From Desulfarculaceae bacterium (GTDB lineage Bacteria > Desulfobacterota > Desulfarculia > Desulfarculales > Desulfarculaceae), in contig JAIPDO010000001.1 of the NCBI GenBank assembly GCA_021737645.1, forward strand, positions 1-64,000: 64,000 nt of DNA. Direction: 5' to 3'. Both the position numbers and the translations under genes were made by a program. Every line of letters starts with the position of its first letter. Positions within the stretch are counted from its first letter, which is position 1. Positions 4,302 to 59,602 of the stretch are shown here, one piece after another. The notes under the pieces are model-generated. The model was not told the DNA's origin. It saw only the letters and a program-made list of their open reading frames with translations, and made no database searches.

Positions 4302-4442
4302 CTAATCGGAGGAAGGCAGAGGTTTGGCCCCTTGCAACCCCATTTCCTTTTCGCAACAAATCATCGCACCTTCGCCGCCCTTGGTGCAAAGCACTTCGGT
4401 GCCGCATTCTTCACAGCGGTAACGCTTACCCAACTGGCTCAT
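4302..4442 (-). CDS. Desulforedoxin-like miniprotein, 46 aa
   Basis: A small ORF: start ATG at 4442 preceded by GAGGAGGGAG, stop TAG. The product begins MSQLGKRYRCEECGTEVLCT and has CxxC (Cys10, Cys13) and an adjacent pair Cys29-Cys30, the arrangement that binds one iron in desulforedoxin and in the N-terminal domain of desulfoferrodoxin. An extra Cys (19) lies between them. The tail of about 16 residues (from EKEMG) is longer than in classical 36-residue desulforedoxin. It lies 18 bases downstream of a sister gene, so the two form a tandem pair, possibly after duplication. Role: small redox or metal protein, partner unknown. Confidence 0.8.
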   Translation of the reverse strand: MSQLGKRYRCEECGTEVLCTKGGEGAMICCEKEMGLQGAKPLPSSD

Positions 4443-4460
4443 GGCAACAACTCCCTCCTC

Positions 4461-4577
4461 TTATTTCTTTTGCATGGGCTGGCCGCAGCATTTGAGCTCA
4501 CCCTTGCCCCCTTTGGTCACGATAAATTCTGAGCCGCACTTTTCGCACCGGTATTTTTCCCCAACTTTGGTGGCCAT
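4461..4577 (-). CDS. Desulforedoxin-like miniprotein, 38 aa
   Basis: A 38-residue protein beginning MATKVGEKYRCEKCGSEF, with Cys11, Cys14 and the vicinal pair Cys30-Cys31. Length, spacing and the GGKGEL segment before the Cys pair all match desulforedoxin, a rubredoxin-like FeCys4 protein known from sulfate reducers. The start ATG has GGAGGG upstream. It sits 52 bases after the acyl-CoA ligase stop and is followed by the related 46-residue gene, so all are probably co-transcribed. Its occurrence supports an anaerobic Desulfobacterota host. It may pass electrons to or from a pathway dehydrogenase, but nothing in the sequence names the partner. Confidence 0.85.
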   Translation of the reverse strand: MATKVGEKYRCEKCGSEFIVTKGGKGELKCCGQPMQKK

Positions 4578-4629
4578 GTCTTACCCTCCTAGATGTAACC
4601 CCAAAAAATAATTATTAGCCAATAGATGG

Positions 4630-6186
4630 TCAGTCCCCGTAAAGCCTGCGAAGCTCCCTCTTTAGCAGCTTGCCCACCGAATTGTGGGGCATGGACTCCA
4701 CCACGACGAAAGCGGCCGGAACCTTGTAGCTGGCTAGCTTGCCGCGCAGGAACCGCACGATCTCCTCCTCGCCGAACTCGGCCCCGTCTTTCATCACCAA
4801 CACCGCCCTGGCCTCCTGGCCCCAGTCCGGATGCGGTACGCCGATCACCGCTGCTTCATCTATCAGGGGGTGGGAGCAAAGCGCGTTTTCCACCTCCTGT
4901 GGGGAGATGTTTTCGCCGCCCCGAATGATCATGTCGTCGGCGCGCCCGGCCAGGAAGATGTAGCCGTCCTCGTCTATCCAGCCCATGTCCCCGGTGCGCA
5001 GCCATCCCTCGGGAGTGATGGCCTGTTTGGTTTTTTCCTCGTCGCCCCAATAGCCGCTCATCACCCTGCCCCCGCGAACCCATATTTCGCCCGGCATCGG
5101 GGACTCCAGCAGGTTGCCGTCTTCATCAGCAATCGCCACCTCCACATCGGGGAGCGGCTTGCCGATGGAAGAGGTCAGGCGATTCAACTTGCGCTCCCGC
5201 TCTTGTTCGCTGCCTTCCAGCACATGGTCTTCCGGGCCCAACATGGCGATGGTAGAGGCGGTCTCGGTCTGGCCGAACGCGTTGATAAAGCTGACTCCCG
5301 GGAAAAGGGCTATGGCCTTTTTTATGACCTCAAAGGGCATGGGCGCCGCTCCGTAGCTTATCACTTTCAGATGCGAAAGATCGAAGCTCGCGAAGCCGGG
5401 GTGGTCCACCACCCGCTTGAGCATGGTGGGCACCAGCATGGCCCGGCTGGCCTGGTATTTCTGGGCCATGTCCAGCCACAGGTCCACGTCGAATTGGCGC
5501 ATCATCAACAAGGTGCGCCCGCCGTACACCGCCGCTATCATGGCCTGAATGCCGGCCACGTGATACAGCGGCACCACCAAAAGGTTGCTTTCCTCCCGGT
5601 CAGGGTCCGCGGGTTCCACGTTTTCCAGGGCGTAGGAACTGAGGGCATTGAACTTCAAGGGCACCGCCTTGGGCCGTCCCGTGGTGCCGGCGGTGAACAT
5701 CAAAATGGATATGTCATCGTCGGTCACCTCGGCCATAACATCTTCGTCCGAGGCGAGCGCCAGGACATTTTCGTACTCATCCATTCCCGAGTGGGGCCCG
5801 TCCAAGGAAATGCAAGTTGCGGGAAGGGACAAGTTCGCCACCACCTCCTCAACCATTGGTATGTAGCGCTGGCCCACAAGAATGACCTTGGGGCGGGCGT
5901 GCCCGAGCTGAAATTCCAGTTCCGCCGGTTTTACCCGGAAATTGAGCGGCACGAACATGGCCCCAATTTTTGCCGTGGCGAAATAGGCCTCTATGTATTC
6001 GGGGCAGTTCACTTGAAATATTGCCACCCGGTCGGCGCGAGTCACGCCTCGCTCCGCCAGGGCGTTGGCCAGGCGATTGACCCTCTCGCTGAGTTGCGAA
6101 TAAGTGGTCCGGCGGTCCTCAAATATAACTGCATCGCGCTCTGGGACGATGGCGCATGCAATACTCAAAAAATCGGCTGTGTTCAC
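4630..6186 (-). CDS. AMP-forming acyl-CoA synthetase (class I adenylate-forming)
   Basis: An acyl-CoA ligase of about 518 residues that uses ATP to make acyl-AMP and then acyl-CoA. The phosphate loop is LMFTAGTTGRPKAVPL. NAFGQTETAS, LRTGDMGWIDEDGYIFLAGR and the C-terminal NSVGKLLKREL with the catalytic Lys are all present. I place the start at GTG 6186 (VNTADFLSIACAI), which has GAGGG six bases upstream; an upstream in-frame TTG at 6243 lacks a convincing site. Neighbours are crotonases, a MeaB GTPase and a B12 mutase, so it probably activates the pathway acid. In known 2-hydroxyisobutyrate operons an equivalent ligase accompanies the mutase. Confidence 0.92.
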   Translation of the reverse strand: MNTADFLSIACAIVPERDAVIFEDRRTTYSQLSERVNRLANALAERGVTRADRVAIFQVNCPEYIEAYFATAKIGAMFVPLNFRVKPAELEFQLGHARPKVILVGQRYIPMVEEVVANLSLPATCISLDGPHSGMDEYENVLALASDEDVMAEVTDDDISILMFTAGTTGRPKAVPLKFNALSSYALENVEPADPDREESNLLVVPLYHVAGIQAMIAAVYGGRTLLMMRQFDVDLWLDMAQKYQASRAMLVPTMLKRVVDHPGFASFDLSHLKVISYGAAPMPFEVIKKAIALFPGVSFINAFGQTETASTIAMLGPEDHVLEGSEQERERKLNRLTSSIGKPLPDVEVAIADEDGNLLESPMPGEIWVRGGRVMSGYWGDEEKTKQAITPEGWLRTGDMGWIDEDGYIFLAGRADDMIIRGGENISPQEVENALCSHPLIDEAAVIGVPHPDWGQEARAVLVMKDGAEFGEEEIVRFLRGKLASYKVPAAFVVVESMPHNSVGKLLKRELRRLYGD

Positions 6187-6287
6187 TTTTTCCCTCAAAA
6201 ATCTTAGATGGTTTTTTAGGCTCAGGCTGGGCCCATCATTCAACTACCCCCGGCCCGCCCAGCATCACACATTCCTGATGGCCGTCA

Positions 6288-7001
6288 TTAGATGGAACGG
6301 GCCAAGAGCTTTTCCAGGCGCAAGCCTTGGGATAAAGTCATGTCCTGCCCACGGCGCACCGCCTGCTTGGCTGCCCGCACCGCCTTGGGATTGTAGGAGG
6401 CGATCCGCTCGGCCATCTCACTGGCCGCCGGCAACAAGTCTTGCGGCTCCAACAGGCGGTTCACCAAGCTAATGCGCAAGGCTTCCGCCGCATCCAGCCA
6501 TTCATTGGTCAAGAGCATCTCCATGGCCTTGGCCGCGCCGATGGCGCGGGGCAAGGTCTGGGTGCCGCCTGCGGCCGGAATGATGCCCAGGCTCACCTCG
6601 GGCAGGCCGAAGCGGGCGTTGGTGGCTGCCAGCCTTATGTCGCAAAACAAGGCTATCTCGATCCCCGAGCCCAGAACGTAGCCGTTCAAGGCAGCGATCA
6701 AAGGCTGGGGTAGATTGGAAAAACGGTCCCAGATATCGCGCTGAAAACGAATCATGCGCGCCTGGGCGGGCGGCGGCGCGCTCAGGAATTCCTTGAGGTC
6801 GGCTCCGGCGCAAAAGGCCTTGTCCCCGCCTCCCTTGACCACCACCACCCGGACCTCAGGGTCGTCGGCAATGGCGCCCAACACCTCGTACAAATCGTCG
6901 CGCATCTGGATGTTGTAGGCGTTCAGGGCCTCGGGGCGGTTCAGGGTCACATAGGCCACCCCGCCGTCCTTTTCGTAGATTATGGTCTCAAACCCGCTCA
7001 T
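6288..7001 (-). CDS. Enoyl-CoA hydratase (crotonase family), C-terminus short
   Basis: A crotonase-fold protein with a full hydratase active site: FCAGADLKEF oxyanion loop, first Glu in GSGIEIALFCDI and second Glu in GLPEVSLGIIPAAGG. It should add water to a 2-enoyl-CoA. The ATG at 7001 (MSGFETII) is preferred over an in-frame TTG 12 bases earlier. The protein stops at LEKLLARSI, about 20 residues before the usual family end. Directly after the stop, the +1 frame reads SNDGHQE and stays open to the start region of the ligase gene, so a one-base frameshift or sequence error is possible. It lies 23 bases downstream of the next crotonase. Confidence 0.88.
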   Translation of the reverse strand: MSGFETIIYEKDGGVAYVTLNRPEALNAYNIQMRDDLYEVLGAIADDPEVRVVVVKGGGDKAFCAGADLKEFLSAPPPAQARMIRFQRDIWDRFSNLPQPLIAALNGYVLGSGIEIALFCDIRLAATNARFGLPEVSLGIIPAAGGTQTLPRAIGAAKAMEMLLTNEWLDAAEALRISLVNRLLEPQDLLPAASEMAERIASYNPKAVRAAKQAVRRGQDMTLSQGLRLEKLLARSI

Positions 7002-7024
7002 GGGCCTATCCAATCGAAGGGCTT

Positions 7025-7786
7025 TTACTCGCCCTTGAAGTCCGGCGACTTTTTGGCCAGAAAGGAGGTGATGCCCTCGGTGCGATCTTGGGTGGTGTGC
7101 AGCAGGAAATACAGGTCCGCCTCAAGGCGCAACCCCTGTTCCAGGCTCATGTCCAGGCCCTTGTTCATGGCCTCCTTGACAAAGCGCATGGCAAGGGGGC
7201 CGTTGGCTTGAGCCTTTTGGCCCCACTCCAGGGCGGTGCGCAGGCAGTCCCCAGGCGCCGCCACTTTGTTCAGCAGGCCTATTTCCATGGCCTGGGCCGC
7301 GCCGAGCACCTCCGCGCCCAGGATTATTTCCATGGCCTTTCCCAGTCCCACCAGCCGGGGCAGGCGTTGGCTGCCGCCATCAAAAGGCATCAGACCCGCC
7401 GCGACCTGCGGCATGGCCAGGCGGCTATCCTGCGCCGCGATCCTCACATCGCAGGCCAGGGCCATCTCCAAGCCCTGGGCGCAAACATCACCTTCCAGCA
7501 CCGCGATGACCGGTTTGTCGAACCTGGCGACCTGCTCGGCCAGGGCCCAATGCTCCTCGCCATCTTCCTCACGCCAGCTCGGAGTGCCCGGACCGAAACA
7601 AAATCCGCCGGGCTCGGAAGCGGTCAGCAGGATCACTCGCAGTTGTTGGTCCCAAGCCACCTCGTCTGCCAACTGGCCCAACTCGTAATGAAGGTTGGCG
7701 AGTTGCTCCGCTTGGCCGGAGTGAGCCTTCAGGGCGATCACCCCCTGGCCGTCCCGCCTTTCATAGCTTATGGCCGTGAATCTCAT
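7025..7786 (-). CDS. Crotonase-family protein with altered active site
   Basis: A 253-residue crotonase-fold protein. The first Glu is kept (QGLEMALACDVRIAA), but the position of the second hydratase Glu is Gln (LAMPQVAAGLMPFDGG), and the oxyanion loop reads GGFCFGPGTPSW instead of FCAGAD. The C-terminal segment EGITSFLAKKSPDFKGE is complete. Simple hydratase activity is therefore doubtful. Isomerase, thioester hydrolase or C-C bond activities, all known in the superfamily, are possible. It sits between the MeaB GTPase and the canonical hydratase in one transcript, and both crotonases probably act in sequence on pathway intermediates. The ATG start at 7786 has only a weak ribosome site. Confidence 0.8.
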   Translation of the reverse strand: MRFTAISYERRDGQGVIALKAHSGQAEQLANLHYELGQLADEVAWDQQLRVILLTASEPGGFCFGPGTPSWREEDGEEHWALAEQVARFDKPVIAVLEGDVCAQGLEMALACDVRIAAQDSRLAMPQVAAGLMPFDGGSQRLPRLVGLGKAMEIILGAEVLGAAQAMEIGLLNKVAAPGDCLRTALEWGQKAQANGPLAMRFVKEAMNKGLDMSLEQGLRLEADLYFLLHTTQDRTEGITSFLAKKSPDFKGE

Positions 7787-7865
7787 GGTGCGTTGCGCGC
7801 TCCCCTAACCGTGTGCCTGCACAGCGGCCCTCGTCCGCCTGAAACTTCCGCCCGTAGCCTGCAAA

Positions 7866-8849
7866 TTAGATTATTTTGGCCGACTTCATCAACTCTTCAC
7901 ACGCAGTGTAGGGGTCGGTTCGCATTGAGGCGACATCCTTGGCCACCGCCTCTATCCGCCCTCCGTTGCCCAAGCGAGCGAAAAACATTTGATTGATGCG
8001 CAACTGGAACAGGTCGAGTATTTCTTTTTCCGCCCGTTCTATGCGCCGCTTGGCCAGAAGCTTGCCGCCGTCCGCCGATAATGCATCGTAATGATCGTCC
8101 ATGGCCTGGAGCAATTCGTCCATGCCGCGGCCGTCCAGCGAGCAGCACGACACCACCGGGGGATACCAGGGCTGGGCTTGTTGGTCACACTCCGAACCGT
8201 GTGGGTGAAAAGTGAGCGACAGCATGGCCTTAAGGTGCCCGGCGGTGATTCCGGCCCCGTCCCGGTCCATCTTGTTCACCACGAAAACATCGCCAACTTC
8301 CAAAATGCCCGCCTTGATAGCCTGTACGTCGTCGCCCATGCCGGGCACGGTGACGATGACGGTGGTGTCGGCCATGCGCGCGATATCCACCTCGTCCTGG
8401 CCCACCCCCACCGTCTCCACCAGGACCACGTCCTTGCCCATGGCGTCCATAACCGCCACTACGCCGCGGGTGGAGCAGGTAAGCCCGCCGAAGTGCCCCC
8501 GCGTGGCCAGGGAACGGATGAACACGTCGTTATCGTTGGCGTGGCGCTGCATGCGGATGCGGTCCCCCAGGATGGCCCCACCGGAAAAGGGGCTGGTGGG
8601 GTCCACCGCCACCACCCCGACGGTGAGCCCTTTCCTGCGCAGCCTGGTGACCACCGCGTCGGTGAGGGTTGATTTGCCCACCCCCGGCGAACCGGTGATA
8701 CCTATAACCCGCGCTCTGCCCGTGTGGGGAAACAGCAGCTTGAGCGCACCCACCGCCTCCGGCTGCACATCGTCTATGGCCCGCATCAGACGGGCGGCCG
8801 CGGGAATGTCGCCGGAAACGATTCTTTGTGCGATTTCCTCGGGAGTCAT
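7866..8849 (-). CDS. meaB: MeaB/ArgK-type GTPase, chaperone of B12 acyl-CoA mutase
   Basis: A G3E-family GTPase that loads and protects adenosylcobalamin on acyl-CoA mutases. The P-loop is GITGSPGVGKSTL. VDPTSPFSGGAILGDRIRM, TRGHFGGL, the switch motif ETVGVGQDEVDI and NKMDRDG follow in the family order. The start is set at ATG 8849 (MTPEEIAQRIVSG), giving 327 residues as usual; an upstream ATG at 8891 would add 14 unconserved residues and overlaps the stop of a small ORF as TAATG. The mutase subunits lie 3.3 kb upstream on the same strand, so this is very probably their dedicated chaperone, as in the hcm and mcm operons. Confidence 0.93.
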   Translation of the reverse strand: MTPEEIAQRIVSGDIPAAARLMRAIDDVQPEAVGALKLLFPHTGRARVIGITGSPGVGKSTLTDAVVTRLRRKGLTVGVVAVDPTSPFSGGAILGDRIRMQRHANDNDVFIRSLATRGHFGGLTCSTRGVVAVMDAMGKDVVLVETVGVGQDEVDIARMADTTVIVTVPGMGDDVQAIKAGILEVGDVFVVNKMDRDGAGITAGHLKAMLSLTFHPHGSECDQQAQPWYPPVVSCCSLDGRGMDELLQAMDDHYDALSADGGKLLAKRRIERAEKEILDLFQLRINQMFFARLGNGGRIEAVAKDVASMRTDPYTACEELMKSAKII

Positions 8850-8890
8850 TGACTGATTTCCATTCCACGTTAGCGCCCGCGAAAGACGCA

Positions 8891-9028
8891 TTATAGGCCA
8901 GTGTCGGCGATTTGGGCGCCGAGGTCGAGACCGGTTTCCCTAGGAACGCCGGTTTGGGACAAAAGGTTCAAGCTCCCGGCTATGATGAGGTACCTGTTTC
9001 CGAAAAACTCAATGGCCCTGATTTTCAT
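8891..9028 (-). CDS. Hypothetical 45-aa ORF upstream of meaB
   Basis: A short frame starting MKIRAIEFFGNRYLIIAG and ending AQIADTGL. Its stop overlaps an upstream in-frame ATG of the meaB frame (TAATG), which would allow translational coupling. No known domain is recognised and the ribosome site is weak (GGTGG directly before the ATG). It occupies roughly half of the 329-base gap between meaB and the thiolase-like gene. It could be a real miniprotein, a leader peptide or a decayed remnant. Evidence is limited to frame, position and plausible amino-acid makeup. Confidence 0.3.
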   Translation of the reverse strand: MKIRAIEFFGNRYLIIAGSLNLLSQTGVPRETGLDLGAQIADTGL

Positions 9029-9095
9029 TCCACCGGCGCCGCCCATGCTTTGCCAAGCCGTGGCCGGTTCCGGGCCTCGAGGCGGATGCCTCGGT

Positions 9096-9128
9096 GAGTG
9101 GCCGCCCCTTACAATCGGGCGGCCACTC
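9096..9128 (-). terminator. Stem-loop after the thiolase-like gene
   Basis: GAGTGGCCGCCC and GGGCGGCCACTC form a perfect 12-base-pair stem around a nine-base loop, about 50 bases past the thiolase-like stop. No U-run follows on the minus strand, so it may be a weak terminator, a pause or a 3'-end stabiliser that lowers expression of the downstream meaB block. Confidence 0.5.
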
Positions 9129-9178
9129 CCTTGGCGCGGCAATAAATATTCAACCCAGGTCCCTTCATGAATGTTTCA

Positions 9179-10360
9179 CTACACTTCCAAAATCGTGGTG
9201 CCGCTATTGCCCATGAGCCCATAGGTCTGGGCCATGCCCACCCTGGCGTTTTCCACCTGGCGCGAGCCGCATTGGCCGCGCAGTTGGGTCACCACCTCCG
9301 CCACCTGCCAAATGGCTTGCGCGCCAATGGCCTCGCCAAAGGATGAGAAACCGCCGCTGGGGCACACCGCCACCTTGCCGCCGATTTCGGTATCACCCTT
9401 TGCCAGCATCTTTTCAGCCTCGCCCTCGCCGCAGAAACCGCAGGTTTCCAGGTATTGCAGATAGTGCCAAGAGCTGTTGTCCGGGAGCTCCAGAATGTCC
9501 ACATCCTCCGGCCCTATCCCGGCCATTTCATAGGCTTGGCGCGATGCGGAGTAGCTCTCGCTGAGCAAAGGCGCTTCGGCCTTGGCCGGAGCAGAGAGCG
9601 CGGAGATGCGCAGGGTTGGGTCTCCGTAGATGGAGCTGCCGATGGTGGTGGCGGCCACCTTGACCGGCTTGGATGCATACTCTTTAGCCTTGTCCGACGC
9701 GCACAAAATCAGAGCAGCGGCCCCGTCGCTGGTGGCGCAAATCTCGTAAAGCCGCAGGGGATCGCACACCATAACCGAATCGAGCACCTCATCGCGGGTG
9801 TATAGCTTCTTGTACCTGGCGTTGGGGTTCTGGGAGCCGTACTTGCTGAGCAGCACCTTCACGTCGGCCAGATCCTGCTCGGTGGTCCCGTACTTCTCCA
9901 TGCGCTTTTTGCACTCCAGGGCCCAGTAAGGGGGGTTGGACATTCCAACCATGCGCCAGCGCAACACGTCCATGTCTTGTTGGGGATTGTCGGATTTGGC
10001 GGTGAGCACGCCCTTGGGGGACATATCCACACCCAGGCACAAAGCCACATCCACCTGACCAGAGGCGATGCTCATGTAAGCGGTGCGCATGGCCGATGAG
10101 CCGGTGGCGCAGGCGGCGTACACGTTAACGATGGGCACGCCGGTTTCGCCGAACACGCTGGCGATGTACTGGCCGGACAGATGGCCCGCGTTGCCGCCCC
10201 AAATGAAGATGCCCGAGCAGATGGTTTGGATCTCCTCCCACTTCATGCCCGCGTCGGCCAGAGCCTTGGCAACGGCATCCACACCCAGATCGATAAAATT
10301 CTTGCCTTCGAACTTGCCCCAGGGATGCATTCCCACCCCTACTATCGCAACATCTCTCAT
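9179..10360 (-). CDS. Thiolase-like protein (SCP-x/Ltp2-like), non-canonical active site
   Basis: A 393-residue protein of the thiolase fold, closest in pattern to sterol-carrier-protein thiolases. The nucleophile loop is kept (YAACATGSSA, Cys84). The later catalytic motifs are changed: HDCF is ELPDNSSW (~291-298), and the GHPxGA His motif is GEAIGAQ with Glu343. The C-terminal QTYGLMGNSGTT aligns with QHNIGxGGA. Claisen cleavage as in normal thiolases is therefore uncertain. It is followed in family logic by a DUF35 partner, encoded 36 bases upstream. Thiolase-fold/DUF35 pairs include steroid side-chain retro-aldolases (Ltp2), so a C-C lyase role is a reasonable alternative. Confidence 0.85.
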   Translation of the reverse strand: MRDVAIVGVGMHPWGKFEGKNFIDLGVDAVAKALADAGMKWEEIQTICSGIFIWGGNAGHLSGQYIASVFGETGVPIVNVYAACATGSSAMRTAYMSIASGQVDVALCLGVDMSPKGVLTAKSDNPQQDMDVLRWRMVGMSNPPYWALECKKRMEKYGTTEQDLADVKVLLSKYGSQNPNARYKKLYTRDEVLDSVMVCDPLRLYEICATSDGAAALILCASDKAKEYASKPVKVAATTIGSSIYGDPTLRISALSAPAKAEAPLLSESYSASRQAYEMAGIGPEDVDILELPDNSSWHYLQYLETCGFCGEGEAEKMLAKGDTEIGGKVAVCPSGGFSSFGEAIGAQAIWQVAEVVTQLRGQCGSRQVENARVGMAQTYGLMGNSGTTILEV

Positions 10361-10396
10361 GACCTTTGGATCCTCTCTTGAAACCGCCGCCGGTGT

Positions 10397-10837
10397 CTAC
10401 TTGACCGGCCTGAAGCCCCAGGTCTGCACGCTTTGGCCGTCTTCATTGCGGTAAAGGGTGTAGGCCACCGTTTCCATTTCCATGCCCATCTTCAGGTCGT
10501 CCTGTGAGCAATCGGTGATGATGCCCACCACCTGGATACCCTCGGGGAATTCCACCATGCCCATTGGGAAAGGCGTGATGTCCTTTTCGGTCTTAAAGGG
10601 CTTAGGGGGCATATAGTGCAGGGTGGTGAAGCTGGCCAGCGTCCCTTTCCTGTGCAACAAGACCTCATCCACCGGCCCCCTGGAGCAGCCAGGCCGATGT
10701 TGCTGATGGTTTTTGGGGAAGAAATGGGTGCCACAGTCGCCGCAACGGGCGCTCATCAGATGAACCCCGTCCTGTGCCTCGGTGAAAAGCCCCGGATAGG
10801 CGGGAACGGCGTTGGCTACTTGCTCTTGCTGACTCAT
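10397..10837 (-). CDS. DUF35 OB-fold/zinc-ribbon protein, partner of thiolase-like enzyme
   Basis: A 146-residue protein with an N-terminal ribbon (CGDCGTHFFPKN) and a C-terminal OB fold (GTLASFTTLHY; VEFPEGIQVVGII; AYTLYRNEDG). DUF35 proteins bind acyl-CoA or bridge thiolase-family enzymes to a partner. The second half of the ribbon has only one Cys (HRPGCSRG) where two are usual, so metal may be bound by Cys3-His or not at all. It starts at ATG 10837 after AGAAGGAGG and is the first gene of its transcript, lying past the terminator of the SDR gene. The gap to the thiolase-like gene is 36 bases, consistent with a complex. Confidence 0.88.
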   Translation of the reverse strand: MSQQEQVANAVPAYPGLFTEAQDGVHLMSARCGDCGTHFFPKNHQQHRPGCSRGPVDEVLLHRKGTLASFTTLHYMPPKPFKTEKDITPFPMGMVEFPEGIQVVGIITDCSQDDLKMGMEMETVAYTLYRNEDGQSVQTWGFRPVK

Positions 10838-10918
10838 GTTATGAGCCTCCTTCTGCTTACGCCATTTTCAACAATCGTAAGTTTGTTGGTTTTAAACTTG
10901 CTCATTTTGGACGGTTTT

Positions 10919-10950
10919 AAAACCCGGCCGCCGGTTGCCCGGCGGCCGGG
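10919..10950 (-). terminator. Rho-independent terminator after SDR gene
   Basis: CCCGGCCGCCGG and CCGGCGGCCGGG make a perfect 12-base-pair stem with a four-base loop, three bases beyond the SDR stop, followed on the minus strand by TTTTAAAA. It separates the transport/mutase transcript from the DUF35-thiolase transcript. Confidence 0.8.
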
Positions 10951-10953
10951 CCT

Positions 10954-11715
10954 CTACCAGCCGCCGCCGTTGACGTAGATGGTCTGGCCGTTGATGTAGG
11001 AGCCTTTTTCAGATGCCAAAAAGGCCACCATCTCGCCTATGTCCTCGGGCTGCGCCAGGCGCTCAAAGGGCATCATGGGGTAGGCGTCCTTGACGTCTTC
11101 CACCTTGAAGCGAGCCTTGACCATGCGCACGCCCATCTCCGTTTCGGTGATGCCGGGCCCCACCACGTTCACCCGGATCTTATGCTTGCGCTCCTCCTTG
11201 GCCAGGATAATGGCCATGGCCTCCACAGCCGCCTTGGCCATGGTGTAGGGAGCGCCCAGGGGGCGGTATATCTGGGTGGCGTGTGAGGAGATATAGATCA
11301 CCGAGCCCCCGCCCTGCTCACGCATGATGGGGACCACCAGTTTGGTGAAGCGCATGCCGCCCAGGGCGTGCACCTCGTACAGGCGTCTGGCCTCATCTAT
11401 CTCGGTCTTGACCACCGTGTGGCCTCGGGAGGCCACCCCCGCGTTGGATACGAACACGTCTATGCGGCCGAAGGTCTCCATGGTTTTATCCACGGTGTTG
11501 GCCACCATGACGTCATCGGTTACATCGGCATCGACCAGGAGCGCCTTGGCCCCGGTCTTTTCCACCATGGCCGCGGTTTCCTGGGCCATTTCCAGAAAGC
11601 GAGACAAATGGCTGACTATCACGTTGGTGCCCTGGCTGGCCAAGGCCACGCAGATGGCACGGCCGATTCCCCGGTCCGCTCCGGTGACGATGGCTACAGG
11701 GTTGCTGCTTTTCAT
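10954..11715 (-). CDS. SDR-family dehydrogenase, probable 3-hydroxyacyl-CoA dehydrogenase
   Basis: A classical short-chain dehydrogenase/reductase of about 253 residues. The NAD(P) motif is TGADRGIGRAI, the catalytic Ser lies in VIYISSHA, and Tyr and Lys in PYTMAKAAVEAMA. The end, SYINGQTIYVNGGGW, is the usual FabG-like tail. The start is ATG 11715 (MKSSNPVAIV), preceded by GGGAGG; an upstream in-frame ATG adds eight residues without a better site. It is 16 bases downstream of the mutase small subunit and ends the operon at a terminator. By context it probably oxidises the hydroxyacyl-CoA made by the mutase or a hydratase. Substrate is not provable from sequence. Confidence 0.88.
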   Translation of the reverse strand: MKSSNPVAIVTGADRGIGRAICVALASQGTNVIVSHLSRFLEMAQETAAMVEKTGAKALLVDADVTDDVMVANTVDKTMETFGRIDVFVSNAGVASRGHTVVKTEIDEARRLYEVHALGGMRFTKLVVPIMREQGGGSVIYISSHATQIYRPLGAPYTMAKAAVEAMAIILAKEERKHKIRVNVVGPGITETEMGVRMVKARFKVEDVKDAYPMMPFERLAQPEDIGEMVAFLASEKGSYINGQTIYVNGGGW

Positions 11716-11731
11716 CTTCCAAGCCTCCCGA

Positions 11732-13828: not shown

Positions 13829-13867
13829 TATCCAAACTCCCAACTATTGCTGACTGCATAATGGCGT

Positions 13868-14668
13868 TTAGCGTCCCTTGAACTGGGGCGGCCTTTTCTC
13901 CATAAAGGAACTAACCCCCTCCTTGATGTCCTCTGAGTGGCGGCAAATCGCCTGGCCCCAGCTCTCAAATTCCAGCGCGCTGGTGAACTCGCTGGACCAG
14001 GCATGCTGGGCCGCCTTTTTTATGAACGCCAAGGACAGGGGCGCCTGCTTAAGGAGCTTGCCCGCCATGTCCTTTGCTTCGGATAACAGCTGATCGGGCT
14101 CGACGATCTTATTGACCATGCCTATGCGCTGGGCCTCCTGGGCATCGATGTTGTCGGAGGTCATCATCAGCTCCAGGGCCTTGGCATAGCCGACCACCAT
14201 CTGGAGGCTGCGGGTCATGCCGCCGTCGGGCACCATGCCCCGGCGGGCGAACACGGCGCAAAATTTGGCGCTGGGCACGGCGATGCGCAGGTCTGCCAGC
14301 AGGGCCAGGGAATACCCCACCCCCGCCGCCTGGCCGTTCACAGCCGCGATTACCGGCTTGCCCTGTTCGGCCAAACCCACGGTGAACTGGGTCACGCGTT
14401 CTGAAAAATATTTGAACCCAAGTTTGAGCTTGCCGCTTTGAATGCCTTGCAACCGCTCCTGGACGTCCGCGCCGGCGCAGAAGCCCCGCCCGGTCCCGGT
14501 GATAATCAACACCCTGATGTCGTCGTCCTCTTGGACCCGCCGAAACAGGTCCGGCAGGGTGTGGTCCAGCATCTGAGAAGTCAGGGCGTTTAGTTTCTCG
14601 GGGCGGTTGAGGGTGAGCAAGGCGATGCCTTGATCGTCAACCTCGAAAAGAACCTCATCGGTGGCCAT
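13868..14668 (-). CDS. Crotonase-family protein, isomerase-like active site
   Basis: A 266-residue crotonase-fold protein with FCAGADVQERL as oxyanion loop. Both hydratase glutamates are missing: the first position lies in GVGYSLALLADLRIA and the second in CAVFARRGMVPDGGMT. The Asp of VPDGG is kept, the position used in PaaG-type isomerases, so double-bond isomerisation or another proton-transfer reaction is more likely than hydration. The C-terminus is complete (EGVSSFMEKRPPQFKGR). It starts at ATG 14668 behind GAGGGAACGAT and lies immediately before the mutase large subunit in the transcript. It is a close relative of the crotonase encoded at 18106-18903. Confidence 0.85.
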   Translation of the reverse strand: MATDEVLFEVDDQGIALLTLNRPEKLNALTSQMLDHTLPDLFRRVQEDDDIRVLIITGTGRGFCAGADVQERLQGIQSGKLKLGFKYFSERVTQFTVGLAEQGKPVIAAVNGQAAGVGYSLALLADLRIAVPSAKFCAVFARRGMVPDGGMTRSLQMVVGYAKALELMMTSDNIDAQEAQRIGMVNKIVEPDQLLSEAKDMAGKLLKQAPLSLAFIKKAAQHAWSSEFTSALEFESWGQAICRHSEDIKEGVSSFMEKRPPQFKGR

Positions 14669-14731
14669 ATCGTTCCCTCTAGTTACCCATTTGCGTTGGG
14701 GTTAATTAACTTCGTTTTATTTCCGAGCTGG

Positions 14732-16636
14732 TCATGCGGGCGATCTCTGGGCTTCGCGCCCTGCCAAGAGATAGGCGACAAATGCCATGCCCAGCACTAC
14801 GCCGACCCCCACGATAGTGGTGTAGCCTTCCGGGAAGGCGGTGAGCAGACCGCCGCAGAAAAGGCCCGCGCGCACGAACCAATTTTTGATGATCCCCACG
14901 CCTATCAAGTAACCCTCAAGGGCCGAGCCCAGGCTGATGACCCCCACTGCGGCGAAAAACACGGTGTAGGTGACTTCCCAAGCTGTCCCGTGAGTCAACA
15001 GCGCCGGGTTGTAGGCGAAAAAGAAGGGGACGATGTATTTGACCGCGCCCAGGCGCATGGCGGTCCAGCCGGACTTCATGAAGTCCGAGCCCGCCAAGCC
15101 GGAAGCGGCGCTTACGCACAGGGCCACCGGCGGGGTGATCTCCGACAAAACGCCCCAGTAGAACACGAACAGATGGGCGGCCAGCGGGTCTATACCGAAC
15201 TCGACCAGCCCTGGCACCAGAACAATAGCCAAAAAAATGTAGCAAGCGGTGATGGTCATACCCAGGCCGAGGATGAAGCTGGCGATGGCCCCCACCACCA
15301 GCATGGGCAGGATGTGCCCCCCCACCATACGAACGATTTCCCCGGAAAAAGACAGGGCCACGCCGGTGAAGGAAAGCCCCCCGATTATCATGCCCGCCGC
15401 CGCTAAAATGGCGACCAGTTGCACCACCACCTTGCCGGTTTCCACAACCAATTCGACCATCTTGCGCAAATTCAGGCGGCTTCTTTTCTTGCAGGCGGCC
15501 AAGAAAATCAGAGTAGCACTGGCATAAAACGGAGCCCGCTCTTCCAACTTCAAGGTCAACAAGAGATAGACCAGCACCACGATGACAAACAGGTATTGCC
15601 AGCCTTCTTTGAGCGTTTGGGTGAAGGAAGGCAGTTCGGCACGGGAAAGGCCTTTGAGATCGGCTTTCACCGCATAGGCATCAACCTGAACATAAAGGCC
15701 CAGGTAGTAAAGCAGCGCGGGGATCAAGGCTCCAACCACCACAAAGGCGTAAGGCACGTTCAAAAAAGAAGCCATGATGAACGCGGCCGCGCCCATAACC
15801 GGGGGCATAATGGGCCCGCCGGTGGAGGCGCAAGCCTCGATGGCGGCCGCATAGTGGGGCGAGAAACCAGACCGCTTCATGGCGGGGATGGTCATGGCCC
15901 CGGTGGTGAGGGTGTTGGACACGGTAGAGCCGCTGATGGAGCCGAAAAAAGTGGAAGCCAGGATACTGATCTTGGCCGCTCCCCCCCGGCTGGTTCCGAG
16001 CATGGACTGGGCCAGCTTGAAAAAGAACTCGCCGCCACCGGTCTTCATCAGCACCACCCCGAAGAGCATAAAGCCGATGAGCAGGGTGGCCACGGTGTAC
16101 AGGGGGATGCCCAAGATGCCGCTCATGCCCATGGCGAACAAACGGGCGGCGGTCAGCGGATCATAAGACGGCCCCGCCAAAAAGCCCGGCATGTATTCTG
16201 CCACCATGGGAAAAATCGTCAGGATGATGCACATGATCAGCATGGCGATGTCGGTCACCCGCCTCACCGCCTCCAGCACCAGCAGGCACAGCAAAACACT
16301 GCACAGCGTGGGCAGCCAAGGCGCCACGTATTCCCAACCCGAATGCCGTATCTTCATCCCGTGGACTGCGAAATAGATGCAGATGGCGGCGCACATGGCG
16401 AACAGGCAGATGTCGTACCAGGGCACCCGGTCATGGGGGGCGGAACCCTTGGCGGGATAAAGGACGAACACCAACGAAAGATAGCCGGCCAGCATTATGT
16501 ACATGTAGGTGTTGTCGATGAACGTTATGCCAAGCCAAGTCATCTGGAAAATTTGGTAGATGGAAAGAAGAAGCGGAATCCCCGAAAAAATTATCAGCGC
16601 GACGTACCAAAGGGGTTTATTGTCAAGCCTTCTCAT
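14732..16636 (-). CDS. TRAP transporter fused permease (DctQM type)
   Basis: A 634-residue inner-membrane protein joining the small (4 TM) and large (12 TM) TRAP subunits, the arrangement that works with TAXI-type binding proteins. It is hydrophobic almost throughout. Characteristic blocks are GGGEFFFKLAQSMLGTSRGG, FFGSISGSTVSNTLTTGAM, ASTGGPIMPPVMGAAAFIM and GLGMTITACYIFLAIVLVP. It uses a sodium or proton gradient to bring in an organic acid delivered by the periplasmic TAXI protein encoded three genes upstream at 19041-20216. Being in one transcript with CoA-transferases and the mutase suggests that the imported acid is the pathway substrate. Confidence 0.93.
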   Translation of the reverse strand: MRRLDNKPLWYVALIIFSGIPLLLSIYQIFQMTWLGITFIDNTYMYIMLAGYLSLVFVLYPAKGSAPHDRVPWYDICLFAMCAAICIYFAVHGMKIRHSGWEYVAPWLPTLCSVLLCLLVLEAVRRVTDIAMLIMCIILTIFPMVAEYMPGFLAGPSYDPLTAARLFAMGMSGILGIPLYTVATLLIGFMLFGVVLMKTGGGEFFFKLAQSMLGTSRGGAAKISILASTFFGSISGSTVSNTLTTGAMTIPAMKRSGFSPHYAAAIEACASTGGPIMPPVMGAAAFIMASFLNVPYAFVVVGALIPALLYYLGLYVQVDAYAVKADLKGLSRAELPSFTQTLKEGWQYLFVIVVLVYLLLTLKLEERAPFYASATLIFLAACKKRSRLNLRKMVELVVETGKVVVQLVAILAAAGMIIGGLSFTGVALSFSGEIVRMVGGHILPMLVVGAIASFILGLGMTITACYIFLAIVLVPGLVEFGIDPLAAHLFVFYWGVLSEITPPVALCVSAASGLAGSDFMKSGWTAMRLGAVKYIVPFFFAYNPALLTHGTAWEVTYTVFFAAVGVISLGSALEGYLIGVGIIKNWFVRAGLFCGGLLTAFPEGYTTIVGVGVVLGMAFVAYLLAGREAQRSPA

Positions 16637-16691
16637 TTCACGACCTCACTAACCGAAAACAAAACGTTAACAATTTGGAGTTTCCAGATGG

Positions 16692-17357
16692 TCAAAACTC
16701 CATCTCCGACAAATCTTCGGATATGATGAGATCTGGTTCCGTGTTGGCTTGGACCTCTTCCGGCGTAATTCCCGGGGCAACTTCCTTTAAGACTAGACCG
16801 GCTCCTTCCAGCTCGATGTAGGCCAGGTTGGTGATGATGGTGTTAACGCACCTCCTGGCGGTCAGGGGCAGGGAGCACTGCTTGACGATACGGGGCTTGC
16901 CGTTTTTGTCGGTGTGCTCCATGGCCACCACTACTCTTTTGGCGCCCTGGGCCAATTCGATGGCCCCGCCGATTCCGCCGACGTGATAGCCCTGTAGCTG
17001 CCAATTGGCCAAGTCGCCTGTTTCCGAGACCTGATAGGCCCCCAAAACAGCCAGATCCAAGTGCCCGCCGCGGATCATGGTGAAGGACTCGTTGAGATCG
17101 AACACCGCCGCGCCGGGCAAAAGAGAGGTGGGTTGGCCAGAGGCGTTGATCAGGTCAGCATCGGCCTGGGTTTCATCGTCGATGACCCCGGCGTAGCGAA
17201 GCATCCCGTTCTCCGCGTGCAAAATGATGTCGATGTCCTCTGGGATGAACAGGCTGGTCAGGGTAGGCAAGCCAAAACCCAGGTTCACGTACATCCCGTC
17301 TTTGAGTTCCTTGGCAACCCTGAGGGCCACCAACTCCCTGCTTAATCCTTGTTCCAC
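16692..17357 (-). CDS. Family I CoA-transferase, subunit B
   Basis: A 221-residue beta subunit of the 3-oxoacid/acetate CoA-transferase family. The catalytic glutamate is in HAENGMLRYAG, the family SENG motif. GFGLPTLTSLF lies near the N-terminus and GGHLDLAVLGAYQVSETGD in the middle. Start GTG 17357 after AGGGGG. It follows subunit A by 19 bases. The reaction is transfer of CoA from a donor such as acetyl-, succinyl- or acetoacetyl-CoA to an acid. Together with the family III pair and the AMP ligase, the locus has three separate ways of making CoA thioesters, so each may serve a different step. Confidence 0.92.
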   Translation of the reverse strand: MEQGLSRELVALRVAKELKDGMYVNLGFGLPTLTSLFIPEDIDIILHAENGMLRYAGVIDDETQADADLINASGQPTSLLPGAAVFDLNESFTMIRGGHLDLAVLGAYQVSETGDLANWQLQGYHVGGIGGAIELAQGAKRVVVAMEHTDKNGKPRIVKQCSLPLTARRCVNTIITNLAYIELEGAGLVLKEVAPGITPEEVQANTEPDLIISEDLSEMEF

Positions 17358-17376
17358 CTATGACCCCCTAGCTCAC

Positions 17377-18072
17377 TCAAACGGCCTCGTGGCCGTCGAG
17401 CCACTTGACGATTTTCGGCGCTTTCACCACCCGCTGCACATAGATCCCCTGGATATCGACCCTCTCGGGATCGATATCCCCGACCTCCACGACCTCCTCC
17501 ACCTCGGCGATGGTCACCGTGGCCGCGCCGGCCATTTCCGTGTTGCGGTTGCGGGCCACGAACCGGCAGGTCAGGTTGCCCAAGCGGTCCCCGAAGTGCC
17601 CCCTGATCAGGGCGAAGTCGGCCTCGATGGCCCGCTCCAGCACGCACTCTTCGCCGTCGAACAGCTTGGTTTCCTTGCCTTCGCCGAACACGGTGCCCAC
17701 GCCGATGGGGGTGTAAAAGGCGGGGATGCCCGCCTTGCTGGCCCGGATGCGTTCCGAGAGGATGCCGTGGGGTACGGTTTCCACCTCCAGCAGGCCGGCC
17801 CGCACCTTGGTTTCGATCACCTCGGTTATCTCCGGACGCAGGGAATGGCTGGTAAATCCGGAGATGACCTTTTTGGCCCGATCGTTTTCAACAAAGGGCA
17901 TCCACTCCGGCGACCCGGTGCAGATGATGGTGAGGTCTTTAGTCCCCTTTTCGATAAGGGCCTGGACGAGGTTGTTGGCGCCCCCCGAGGCCGCGAATCC
18001 GCCGACCATAATTCGTGCGCCGTCCTCGATGTCCCTGATCGCCTCAGCAAGGTTTGCGACTACTTTGTTCAT
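17377..18072 (-). CDS. Family I CoA-transferase, subunit A
   Basis: A 231-residue alpha subunit of a two-subunit CoA-transferase. The glycine-rich motif IMVGGFAASGGANNLVQAL near the N-terminus binds CoA. RAKKVISGFTSH, GVGTVFGEGKE and FVARNRNTEMAGAA are further family segments. ATG start at 18072. It lies between a crotonase gene and subunit B in a tightly spaced operon. Acceptor specificity (acetoacetate, butyrate, glutaconate or other) cannot be read from the sequence. Confidence 0.92.
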   Translation of the reverse strand: MNKVVANLAEAIRDIEDGARIMVGGFAASGGANNLVQALIEKGTKDLTIICTGSPEWMPFVENDRAKKVISGFTSHSLRPEITEVIETKVRAGLLEVETVPHGILSERIRASKAGIPAFYTPIGVGTVFGEGKETKLFDGEECVLERAIEADFALIRGHFGDRLGNLTCRFVARNRNTEMAGAATVTIAEVEEVVEVGDIDPERVDIQGIYVQRVVKAPKIVKWLDGHEAV

Positions 18073-18105
18073 GCCTGTCCTTGCGCCTGAAAGGTGGCGG
18101 TTGAG

Positions 18106-18903
18106 CTACTCGCCCGTGAATTTGGGCTCGCGTTTTTCCATGAAAGCTTTGATGCCCTCTTGGTGGTCCGCGGTGGTGTACAGAACGTTTTGGCCCCAAC
18201 TCTCGTACAGCAGGCCTTCTTGGAAGCTCCTGCCCAGGTTGTGGCGAAGGGCGCGCTTGGTGAAGGACATGGCCAGGGGTGGATTGGCCGCCAGCTTGCC
18301 GGCGAAGGCCAGGGCCTCGTCCATCAGGGATTCAGGCGGCACCAGCTTGTTCACCAGGCCGATTCTGAGTGCCTCCTGGGCATCGATGACGTCGCCGGTG
18401 AGAGCCAGTTCCAGGGCCTTGGGCAGACCAACCACCAGAGGCAGGGTGTAGGTGCTGCCGCCGTCTGGCATGAGGCCCCGGCGTACGAAGATCACGCTGT
18501 ATTTGGATTGCTCCGAGGCGATGCGGAAGTCTGCCAGCAGGGCCATGGAAAGGCCCACCCCGGCGGCAGCCCCGTTGATCGCGGCTATGACCGGCTTGGA
18601 GATGGCGGCCAGGCCCTGGGTGAAGCCGCCCACCGGCTCTTCCTTTATCCGGCGTTGGTTCTTGATGGCCTTCAGGCCCGCCCCCAGGTTTGCCTGGACA
18701 TCCGCGCCGGTGCAGAAGCCTTTGCCCGCGCCGGTGATGACCAAGACCCTAATATCCGGGTCTTGCTGCACCCTGGCGAACAGCTCAGGCAAGACATTCA
18801 TGGTCATGTCCCGGGTCACCGCGTTGTATCTGTCGGGCCGGTTAAGGGTCAAAACAGATACGCCGCCCTCTTTAACCTCGAAAATAACTTCTTGTTCGCT
18901 CAT
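18106..18903 (-). CDS. Crotonase-family protein, isomerase-like active site
   Basis: A 265-residue crotonase-fold protein, closely similar to the one at 13868-14668. The oxyanion loop is GFCTGADVQANL. Hydratase glutamates are absent (GVGLSMALLADFRIA; IFVRRGLMPDGGSTYTL), while the Asp in PDGG is present, as in isomerase-type members. The C-terminus EGIKAFMEKREPKFTGE is complete. It precedes the CoA-transferase subunits in the transcript. Two near-identical active-site types within 5 kb suggest duplication and use on successive intermediates. Exact reaction unknown. Confidence 0.85.
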   Translation of the reverse strand: MSEQEVIFEVKEGGVSVLTLNRPDRYNAVTRDMTMNVLPELFARVQQDPDIRVLVITGAGKGFCTGADVQANLGAGLKAIKNQRRIKEEPVGGFTQGLAAISKPVIAAINGAAAGVGLSMALLADFRIASEQSKYSVIFVRRGLMPDGGSTYTLPLVVGLPKALELALTGDVIDAQEALRIGLVNKLVPPESLMDEALAFAGKLAANPPLAMSFTKRALRHNLGRSFQEGLLYESWGQNVLYTTADHQEGIKAFMEKREPKFTGE

Positions 18904-18971
18904 TTCGCCGCCTGCATAAGATGCCTAAAGGTTGTTCCGATGATTTTGCTCAAGCTCTTTGGAGTTTGGTT

Positions 18972-19013
18972 GCCACACTCCGGGCGGGGTGAATCCTTTT
19001 CCCGGAGTGTGGC
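18972..19013 (-). terminator. Long stem-loop between TAXI gene and rest of operon
   Basis: GCCACACTCCGGG and CCCGGAGTGTGGC form a perfect 13-base-pair stem enclosing 16 bases, starting 27 bases beyond the TAXI stop. No U-run follows on the minus strand. It probably stabilises or partly ends the binding-protein mRNA, the usual way to make more binding protein than permease. Confidence 0.6.
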
Positions 19014-19040
19014 GTGTTCATATTTTGTTAGGAGCCGCGT

Positions 19041-20216
19041 CTACCAAGCGTACTCAGGCCCGGCCTTGGTCCTGAACTCCTTCCAGTACTTGACCCAACC
19101 GTCGCCCTTGGCCTTCTTGCCGGCGCTGGTCAGGGCCTTGCGCCACAGTTCGACCAGAGCCTTTTTGTGGGCAACCAGCTCCTGGTTGCGCTTGTCCATG
19201 GCCGGGGTCCACTTGCCAACTTCTTTCCAGTAGCGGATGGCACCGGGATGCACCGGGATCGCGGTGTTCTGGATCAGGTCCAGGCACCACTGCACGGACC
19301 AGTTTTCCTTCATGACCGCGGACTTCTTGGCGTAGATGGGGTAGGACTCGGCCAGGTTCTTCACGTACCAGTAGATGAGGTCCGGGTCCTGGCTGGCCAT
19401 GGTGATGGCGATGGGGTTGGCGTAGGTGGCGCACATCAGGGGCTTTTCAACCGAGACGCCCGCGCCGTTGGTGGCCTTGTACTTGGCCCAGAATGGGTAG
19501 ACCTTGGCGGCCCTTTCCCAGCCCACCTTGTCGCTGAACGGAAGGGCGATGTAGCCGATGCCGTGGCTGCTGGCCTCCAAGCGGCGAGCAAAGCTGGAGG
19601 GGGGCACGGTAATGGCGGTGTCCACCAAACCGGAGATGACGCCCTCGCAGGCGGCGGCATAAGAGGGAACCTTCACCACCTGCACATCTTTCCAGGTGAG
19701 CCCGCCAAAGGCCAAGTGAGCTTCGGCTTGCACGTTGAGGCCGGGGGAGCCTTCCACAAAGGGAACCTTCTTGCCCTTGAGGTCGGCCGGAGTCTTCAGG
19801 CCGCTGCCGGCGCGCACCATCAGGGTGATACCGGTGATGGCAGGGCACCAAACGATGTTCACGTCCTGGGGCCCCCAACCCATCTCTGCGAATTCGGCTC
19901 GGCCCGCGCTGGCAAAGGTCGCCCCGCCACCGATGGTGAGGATGGGAACCGCGCCGGAGCGCAAAGCCGACATCCTGGCGGTGTCTGTGGATGCGGGCAA
20001 AAGCCTGAACTTCTGACCGCTGTGCTCGGTAATGGCCTCAGTGGCCATGGCCGTGGTTCGGTAGGCCGAAGACCCCACGTCATAGGTGGCGATGGGAATG
20101 AAAGGCGGCAGCTTGAATTCCTTGGCCGTTCCGGCCACCGGAAGGAGCAGCAAAACCGCCAAGAGTGCCACAGCCATGGGCATCAAAAACTTAGTGCCTT
20201 TAAACTTATCCTTCAT
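19041..20216 (-). CDS. TAXI-family TRAP solute-binding protein
   Basis: A periplasmic binding protein of the TAXI family, about 391 residues. I take ATG 20216 (MKDKFKGTKFLMPMAVALLA) as start because AAAGGGGAT lies eight bases upstream and a clean signal peptide follows, cleaved near VAGTAKEF. The mature domain shows YDVGSSAYRTTAMATEAI, then TIGGGATFASAGRAEFAEMG and GSPGLNVQAEAHLAFGG. It should deliver an organic acid to the fused permease encoded at 14732-16636. It is the first gene of the minus-strand transcript, and the 436 bases upstream hold two inverted repeats that could be operators. Substrate unknown. Confidence 0.92.
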   Translation of the reverse strand: MKDKFKGTKFLMPMAVALLAVLLLLPVAGTAKEFKLPPFIPIATYDVGSSAYRTTAMATEAITEHSGQKFRLLPASTDTARMSALRSGAVPILTIGGGATFASAGRAEFAEMGWGPQDVNIVWCPAITGITLMVRAGSGLKTPADLKGKKVPFVEGSPGLNVQAEAHLAFGGLTWKDVQVVKVPSYAAACEGVISGLVDTAITVPPSSFARRLEASSHGIGYIALPFSDKVGWERAAKVYPFWAKYKATNGAGVSVEKPLMCATYANPIAITMASQDPDLIYWYVKNLAESYPIYAKKSAVMKENWSVQWCLDLIQNTAIPVHPGAIRYWKEVGKWTPAMDKRNQELVAHKKALVELWRKALTSAGKKAKGDGWVKYWKEFRTKAGPEYAW

Positions 20217-20354
20217 TCGGAAGATCCCCTTTCTCGTGTACATGATCATTTTTTGCCTTGGAAGCTGACAGGCAAATGCCCTTGCCAATTCGCAGGCGGA
20301 AAATTTTTGTGCAAAATCTTTGATGCCGAATGATTATGTCGCGGGCTAATGGTG

Positions 20355-59252: not shown

Positions 59253-59283
59253 ATTTACCATCTCCCACGACCGGGGCGTTCAT

Positions 59284-59460: not shown

Positions 59461-59602
59461 CTTTGGCACTTAGTTATCATCGCCATGGCCACCGGTCAAG
59501 CCCCGGGGTTATCCTTGGCATTGACCTGGGGCGGCAAAAAGGCTATCCCAAGAACAGGCAAACAAGGCTTGGTTCCTACCGGCCCCTAACATGGAGAGGC
59601 GC

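Follow-up and report, generated by a model that had tools for sequence, protein, structure and literature searches.

A divergent class of two-subunit B12-dependent acyl-CoA mutase in a putative catabolic operon of a Desulfarculaceae bacterium

Background

Few reactions of B12-dependent acyl-CoA mutases are known, and automatic naming lumps divergent members of the family as methylmalonyl-CoA mutase (MCM). Here we describe one such divergent mutase, encoded within a minus-strand set of 15 genes at positions 4630-20288 of the window. The window takes in the opening 64 kb of a 169.6-kb contig (JAIPDO010000001.1) from a Desulfarculaceae bacterium (GCA_021737645.1; 4.05 Mb, 114 contigs, 94% complete). 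The host is probably anaerobic, judging from its deltaproteobacterial placement. In our estimate the chances are evenly balanced that this protein represents a second class of two-subunit adenosylcobalamin (AdoCbl)-dependent acyl-CoA mutases, with a rebuilt pocket, a novel rearrangement and, in several lineages, coupling to a short-chain dehydrogenase (SDR), and that the window operon degrades an acid by a new route. A class that has lost the textbook pocket residues in all members compared yet keeps its B12 subunit, often with a chaperone or dehydrogenase adjoining, is a pointer to unknown chemistry, and propionate metabolism should not be read from such genes in metagenomes.

Among described systems (statements on the published ones follow excerpts of the cited papers), HcmAB (PDB 4r3u), encoded in an operon with hcl and meaH (PMC7176365), resembles the window in combining a two-subunit mutase with a MeaB-type chaperone and a ligase. 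HcmA is the best match of the window large subunit among solved chains (364 bits, against 338 for human MCM) and the best fold match, and both proteins have Ile at HcmA position 90; however, they are only 35% identical, and Asp117, Gln208 and the His of HcmA are altered in the window. MCM itself (PDB 1req) shares the fold and the B12-binding part, and IcmF (PDB 4xc6) shares the superfamily fold, but IcmF is a single 1113-residue chain whereas the window encodes its mutase, B12 subunit and MeaB separately.

Sulfate-reducing ketone degraders offer a second comparison. Acetone-induced proteins of Desulfosarcina cetonica include an SDR (105214) and the mutase subunits 105216 and 105217, with 105215 being a MeaB-type gene (PMC7888143); Desulfococcus biacutus has SDR 04571 and subunits 04573 and 04574 (PMC4103992), and this organism is said to employ an RcmAB-like mutase (PMC7176365). 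Desulfotomaculum species have similar sets, with crotonases, thiolases and a ligase, and D. geothermicum has HGD-D proteins (PMC8084838). According to these excerpts, the window shares SDR, MeaB-type gene, both mutase subunits, thiolase and ligase with the D. cetonica acetone cluster, and crotonases with the Desulfotomaculum clusters; the ketone clusters carry a thiamine diphosphate (TDP)-dependent acetone-activating enzyme that the window operon does not. By gene content, the window operon adds tripartite ATP-independent periplasmic (TRAP) uptake of the TAXI type, a CoA-transferase and a DUF35 protein. Given the missing TDP enzyme and the added uptake and activation genes, the window pathway would take an acid, not a ketone, as its starting compound. 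Novelty is most in doubt because the acetone mutases of sulfate reducers could themselves be members of the divergent class. Among the titles and abstract openings listed, mostly from outside subscription journals and in one search 20 of 327 papers, none treats the class; Novosphingobium steroid papers, in the parts consulted, describe a propionyl/methylmalonyl route.

Gene content of the operon

An earlier note on this DNA had proposed a catabolic island at 4302-20216. All the genes it named lie on the minus strand and are recognised by Pfam or curated family models, while the limits move to approximately 4630-20288. From the TAXI gene onward the set reads as follows.

19041-20288 (-), TAXI-family TRAP solute-binding protein (TIGR02122, 152 bits, cut-off 84; NMT1_3)
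18106-18903 (-), crotonase a, PaaG/isomerase-like (PF00378, 2.3e-55; alignments)
17377-18072 (-), family I CoA-transferase subunit A (TIGR02429, 210 bits, cut-off 128.5)
16692-17357 (-), family I CoA-transferase subunit B (TIGR02428, 275 bits, cut-off 243.6)
14732-16636 (-), TRAP transporter fused permease (TIGR02123, 586 bits, cut-off 321)
13868-14668 (-), crotonase b, PaaG/isomerase-like (PF00378, 4.4e-57; alignment)
12140-13843 (-), B12-dependent acyl-CoA mutase large subunit, divergent class (PF01642, 1.3e-153; TIGR00641, 489 bits, cut-off 304; residues, trees, fold)
11732-12139 (-), B12-binding small subunit, its DxHxxG motif reading DVHDRG (TIGR00640, 95 bits, cut-off 57)
10954-11739 (-), SDR (PF13561, 1.1e-54), overlapping the small-subunit gene by 8 bases
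10397-10837 (-), DUF35/OB-fold partner of thiolase (PF01796, 9.4e-13; closest solved chain 6esq_E, DUF35)
9179-10360 (-), thiolase-like protein (NF004715, 438 bits, cut-off 424; Cys84, Pro293, Glu343)
7866-8891 (-), MeaB G-protein chaperone (TIGR00750, 331 bits, cut-off 241)
7025-7786 (-), crotonase d (PF00378, 1.1e-40; alignment)
6288-7013 (-), crotonase c (PF00378, 2.6e-62; alignment)
4630-6243 (-), AMP-forming acyl-CoA ligase (PF00501, 1.1e-83; NF004837, 479 bits, cut-off 476)

The intergenic gaps, in the same order, are 137, 33, 19, 55, 63, 24, 0, -8, 116, 36, 287, 79, 11 and 44 bases, so that the genes for both mutase subunits and the SDR are contiguous. By Pfam, the 15 genes include neither an acyl-CoA dehydrogenase nor a biotin-dependent carboxylase nor a TDP-dependent enzyme.

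Mutase residues, fold and phylogeny

The window large subunit departs from MCM at nearly every pocket position compared. In 1req numbering, R82, T85, R87, Y89, S114, T195, Q197, R207, H244 and F287 are all altered, with Ile at Tyr89, an alignment gap beside Asp at Arg207 and Phe at His244. Tyr89, Arg207 and His244 are functional residues of MCM, in keeping, for Tyr89 and His244, with the mutant entries 5req (Y89F) and 1e1c (H244A) among the structural matches; R82, T85 and R87 contact the CoA phosphates. Neither member of the pair Phe89 and Gln207, which marks isobutyryl-CoA mutase (ICM), is present, nor is a fused chain. I89 occupies the HcmA Ile90 position and V122 that of Asp117. Ile90 with Asp117 is the HcmA pair, of which the window keeps the Ile, and Ile90 with Val117 that of Kyrpidia RcmA, which the window matches.

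These changes characterize a whole group. A residue table of 124 rows (26 divergent, 81 ordinary, 11 duplicates, 4 uncertain and 2 references, one of them HcmA with Ile at 89, which stands outside the ordinary rows) separates the two sets at R82 or K (0/26 divergent versus 80/81 ordinary), T85 (1/26 versus 80/81), R87 (0/26 versus 81/81), Y/F89 (0/26 versus 81/81), S114 (0/26 versus 79/81), T166 (0/25 versus 79 ordinary rows), T195 or S (0/26 versus 81/81), Q197 (7/26 versus 81/81), R/Q207 (6/24 versus 81 ordinary rows), H244 (0/26 versus 81/81) and an F287-like residue (0/26 versus 81/81). Every divergent row has 18-23 residues in segment 104-116, where every ordinary one has 13, an insert of 5-10 residues. 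E247 and E370 are invariant in both sets (26/26 and 81/81). These residues place the window mutase in a separate class within the family, one whose CoA/substrate pocket has been rebuilt, and they make this assignment plainer than the trees do.

The predicted structure retains the mutase family fold, with 4r3u as the best match (template modelling scores 0.83/0.85). The model has a mean predicted local distance difference test score of 77, with poor values, under 50, over residues 64-71 and 73-85, which form part of the pocket. Together with the DxHxxG small subunit and MeaB, this fold supplies the hallmarks of an AdoCbl carbon-skeleton mutase.

A first phylogenetic tree gathers the divergent mutases in a clade (12 of 41 rows, support 100/99) that excludes HcmA, 1req and the ordinary mutases. 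The group recurs in a third tree (14 of 30 rows, support 100/100) and in a larger one (38 of 128 rows, duplicates included, support 100 by the Shimodaira-Hasegawa-like approximate likelihood-ratio test only). A sister relationship to HcmA was rejected (approximately unbiased test, p-AU 3e-10). Because placement of the window mutase on the ordinary side, apart from the other divergent rows, was not rejected (p-AU 0.084), we treat its exact branching as provisional. Residues and trees agree, however, in setting it outside MCM, which bears out the earlier suggestion of a catabolic operon with a non-methylmalonyl mutase, the phylogenetic position being the check that had been proposed for it. The likeness then drawn to the 2-hydroxyisobutyrate operon holds for the ligase-mutase-MeaB plan and fails for the mutase itself.

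The nearest relatives, at 45-52% identity, come from metagenome-assembled genomes (MAGs) including Syntrophaceae CG2_30_49_12, Deltaproteobacteria CSMAG_2901 and Chloroflexi DBS2-1.bin62. The class as a whole was seen in deltaproteobacterial and Chloroflexi MAGs, sphingomonads and Amycolatopsis. Seven of 395 genomes in the phylum sample, the source genome included, gave matches at E 1e-140 or better. Searching with the HcmA sequence added 29 loci, of which 25 aligned at the key positions, all of Tyr/Arg or Phe/Gln type, two (L189, L190) aligned badly there and two (L199, L212) gave no row. A DNA pattern for the HcmA-like motif WT[M/I]RQI occurred in 0/395 phylum genomes, in a scan that had no positive control and would miss the window too, and a single-protein scan of genome contigs confirmed no relative. 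Five genomes of 1.9-3.1 Mb (G135, G245, G267, G288, G238) each gave 15-32 mutase candidates at first look, of which some are unconfirmed; if real, this would be a remarkable expansion.

Neighbourhoods of divergent mutases

We compared neighbouring genes at 27 divergent and 73 other mutase loci, sets that were mostly picked by likeness to the window mutase and are mutually related. Scanning began at locus L036, L039 and L157 were left out as duplicates, and the 73 include three long-branch mutases of uncertain placement. An SDR lies on the same strand within 5 kb at 10 of the 27 divergent loci and at none of the 73 others (Fisher p 5e-7, ignoring relatedness). The profile used for detection drew in part on SDRs from divergent loci, and relaxing the cut-off left the counts unchanged. 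Where 3 kb of sequence was available on both sides (18/27 and 49/73 loci), the numbers are 8 and 0. MeaB occurs at 8/27 divergent and 17/73 other loci, and so by itself is not special.

The ten SDR-bearing loci reduce to four settings: the window, L046, L119 and an alphaproteobacterial/Amycolatopsis group. In this last group mutase, B12 protein, MeaB and SDR stand in series at L048, L053, L056, L068 and on the Sphingobium WTD-1 plasmid, where the consecutive fourth gene encodes a 256-residue dehydrogenase annotated as glucose 1-dehydrogenase; the same four genes were found at L052 and L055 by scan only. Amycolatopsis (L075) has MeaB and SDR domains fused in a 522-residue protein, and L070, of the same group as L048, L053, L056 and L068, showed neither MeaB nor SDR. 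At L053 and on the WTD-1 plasmid (L217), genes for a carboxyltransferase, biotin carboxylase and AtuA lie shortly ahead of the series. L119, from Desulfobacteraceae UBA5623, encodes hydantoinase/acetone-carboxylase-like proteins (L119:1911-6718), a thiolase, B12 protein, mutase and SDR; one of the hydantoinase/acetone-carboxylase-like genes ends in an acetone carboxylase gamma domain. The genes around the L046 mutase encode HGD-D pairs, acyl-CoA dehydrogenases, hydratases and SDRs as well as an HMGL-like lyase and an amidohydrolase. L157, whose mutase is identical, may come from the same organism. G137 combines mutase, B12 protein and crotonase with, further along, thiolase-like proteins, identified by likeness to the window proteins.

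The window gene set as a conserved block was rejected. The whole set occurs at none of the loci listed gene by gene, and the 45-52% homologues adjoin other genes. The thiolase/DUF35 pair has a counterpart (77%/61%) in a same-genus genome with no mutase match in the 35 kb read around it. Conservation of the neighbours, which the earlier note had taken as a check on its proposal, is not found at these loci, and the note's interpretation as a whole is partly supported.

Crotonases and the thiolase/DUF35 pair

The four crotonases (PF00378, E 1.1e-40 to 2.6e-62) are not equivalent. Hydratases of this family use two catalytic Glu residues; alignment shows that crotonase c retains both positions, that a and b have Phe at the first, and that d has Gln there. 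Crotonase a carries an MPDGG motif and is 53% identical to b.

The thiolase-like protein retains Cys84, with Pro293 and Glu343 in place of the usual two His. Only one of 25 compared proteins, the 77% counterpart in the same genus (G002), has this Cys-Pro-Glu pattern, the other 24 being Cys-His-His (17), Cys-Tyr-His (4) or Cys-Gln-Glu (3). Pairing of a thiolase-like protein with a DUF35 partner is shared with the benzoylsuccinyl-CoA thiolase BbsAB, SCP2-thiolase/DUF35 and Ltp2-ChsH2, but the window pair scores just 37 of 250 and 185 of 750 bits against the NCBIfam models for BbsA and BbsB, far under the cut-offs, and, unlike in those pairs, Pro and Glu stand in for the two thiolase His residues. 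The protein may be a lyase of another kind.

Proposed pathway and alternatives

The explanation we favour, with confidence slightly short of even, is that the mutase forms or uses up a hydroxyacyl-CoA by radical rearrangement, in step with oxidation by the SDR, within one catabolic operon and along the lines published for acetone breakdown in sulfate reducers. It is preferred for the contiguity of mutase and SDR genes, the excess of SDRs at divergent loci, the MeaB-SDR fusion, the Sphingobium gene row, and the intact fold and B12 motif. All 15 genes would be co-transcribed as a single catabolic operon. An organic acid, plausibly with a branched or quaternary carbon, would be imported by the TAXI-TRAP transporter and converted to its CoA ester by the CoA-transferase or the AMP-forming ligase, after which the crotonases could relocate double bonds or hydrate them. 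MeaB would supply the mutase with AdoCbl for a 1,2-radical rearrangement in which a branched hydroxyacyl-CoA ester becomes an oxidisable one; the adjoining SDR would oxidise the hydroxyl, and the atypical thiolase/DUF35 pair would cleave the product. This sequence of activation, isomerisation or hydration, radical shift, oxidation and cleavage is our suggested order.

Several observations weigh against this explanation. An SDR lies within 5 kb at just one, L046, of the nine distinct loci nearest the window mutase (L036, L037, L045, L046, L047, L154, L155, L156, L158), and its absence from the other eight keeps our confidence just short of even. SDRs of divergent loci are only approximately 30% alike and so may not be orthologous. 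Promoter and terminator scans gave no excess over shuffled sequence (1 versus 5.8 and 18 versus 18.2), and the operon has neither the TDP enzyme nor an acyl-CoA dehydrogenase. Loss of His244 and the CoA-contacting Arg in 26/26 divergent rows might reflect a very different substrate or slow turnover, and plain thiolysis appears doubtful for a thiolase without both usual catalytic His.

The alternatives differ mainly in substrate. The mutase might act on a non-hydroxylated branched acyl-CoA, of isobutyryl/butyryl or pivalyl/isovaleryl type, with hydratase and SDR serving later in ordinary beta-oxidation. Arg207 of MCM is not kept in the window, as in HcmA and ICM, and the Sphingobium/Sphingopyxis module follows an acyl-CoA dehydrogenase (isovaleryl-CoA dehydrogenase in the plasmid annotation), carboxylase and AtuA; but the ICM pair is absent and, with no acyl-CoA dehydrogenase, the operon alone could not process a saturated acyl-CoA, and we think this unlikely. 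Slightly less likely still is that the enzyme serves anaerobic ring degradation by rearranging a CoA ester that is cyclic or derived from a ring, with PaaG-like crotonases and the atypical thiolase processing ring carbon. Two such crotonases are present in the window, and the 50% homologue at L046 sits amid HGD-D pairs (benzoyl-CoA reductase/2-hydroxyacyl-CoA dehydratase type), HMGL-like lyase, amidohydrolase and hydratases, with similar gene lengths, judged by length alone, at L157 and L155 (52%). However, the window operon has no HGD-D gene, and HGD-D proteins and 3-hydroxy-3-methylglutaryl-CoA lyase are, in the published excerpts, also acetone-induced in ketone degraders (PMC7888143, PMC8084838), hence not ring-specific.

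A 2-hydroxyisobutyryl-CoA mutase function, convergent or RcmAB-like, would fit the Ile and Val at the HcmA Ile90 and Asp117 positions, the Kyrpidia RcmA pair, as well as the ligase and MeaB in the operon and the report of an RcmAB-like mutase in D. biacutus. Given the rejected HcmA sisterhood, the altered HcmA residues, and a substrate that needs neither four crotonases nor a CoA-transferase, we regard it as improbable, more so than either preceding alternative. Ordinary MCM activity in propionyl-CoA disposal has the generic Pfam name MM_CoA_mutase in its favour and is very improbable: MCM identity was rejected by residues and trees, Tyr89, Arg207 and His244 are gone, the operon has no carboxylase, and the genome holds four further mutase genes, one of which, with ordinary residues, lies in a carboxyltransferase cluster. 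Equally improbable is a catalytically dead relic. Although the substrate shell is almost entirely lost, the class spans the MAG, sphingomonad and Amycolatopsis lineages named above, Glu247 and Glu370 are invariant, and the frames are long, with a TAG inside the match in one of ten listed rows.

Genus and genome context

The operon looks to have been gained in its own lineage. The gene to its right (24466-25638) is 74-98% identical in 8/8 genus and family genomes, and similarity in the roughly 20 kb compared to the left of this gene extends to window position 21463 in G005 but only to 24467 in G004; neither stretch contains DNA that matches the operon. The best mutase matches in seven same-genus genomes are only 38-39% identical. 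This comparison covers the right side, the left side of the operon being 4.6 kb from the contig end. G+C content is 0.601 in the operon and 0.641 at 24466-64000.

Clusters of related plan occur in the genus. G000, G002 and G005 combine TAXI (35-37% identical to the window protein), TRAP permease (48-49%), crotonases, B12 subunit, mutase (36-37%) and a thiolase-like protein; one such cluster is the following.

G000:C66:11055-27208, second genus-level cluster with TAXI-TRAP, crotonases, carboxyltransferase, ordinary mutase and thiolase-like protein

Its mutase residues are ordinary and its adjoining carboxyltransferase is confirmed by Pfam, whereas the carboxyltransferases of G002 and G005 were judged by size and sequence start only. 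TAXI, crotonase and mutase matches share one contig within approximately 20 kb in G004 and G007, as do TAXI and mutase in G003. The window operon is thus a variation on a genus theme of uptake, crotonases and mutase, with the mutase class swapped and no carboxylase. G000 has five mutase genes (C100, C21, C66, C64, C61), one in a 1119-residue IcmF-like frame.

Near the 3' end of the operon, two adjoining class III (CaiB-type) CoA-transferase-like genes (357-2699, +) score below NCBIfam cut-offs, and an amidohydrolase family 3 gene (2702-4243, -), which follows the operon, has matches of 35% and 32% in only two of eight related genomes. A second TAXI-type binding protein (NMT1_3) is encoded outside the operon at 23280-24278 (+), and a cobalamin riboswitch (107.7 bits, gathering score 31.5) lies distant from it at 59272-59467 (-).

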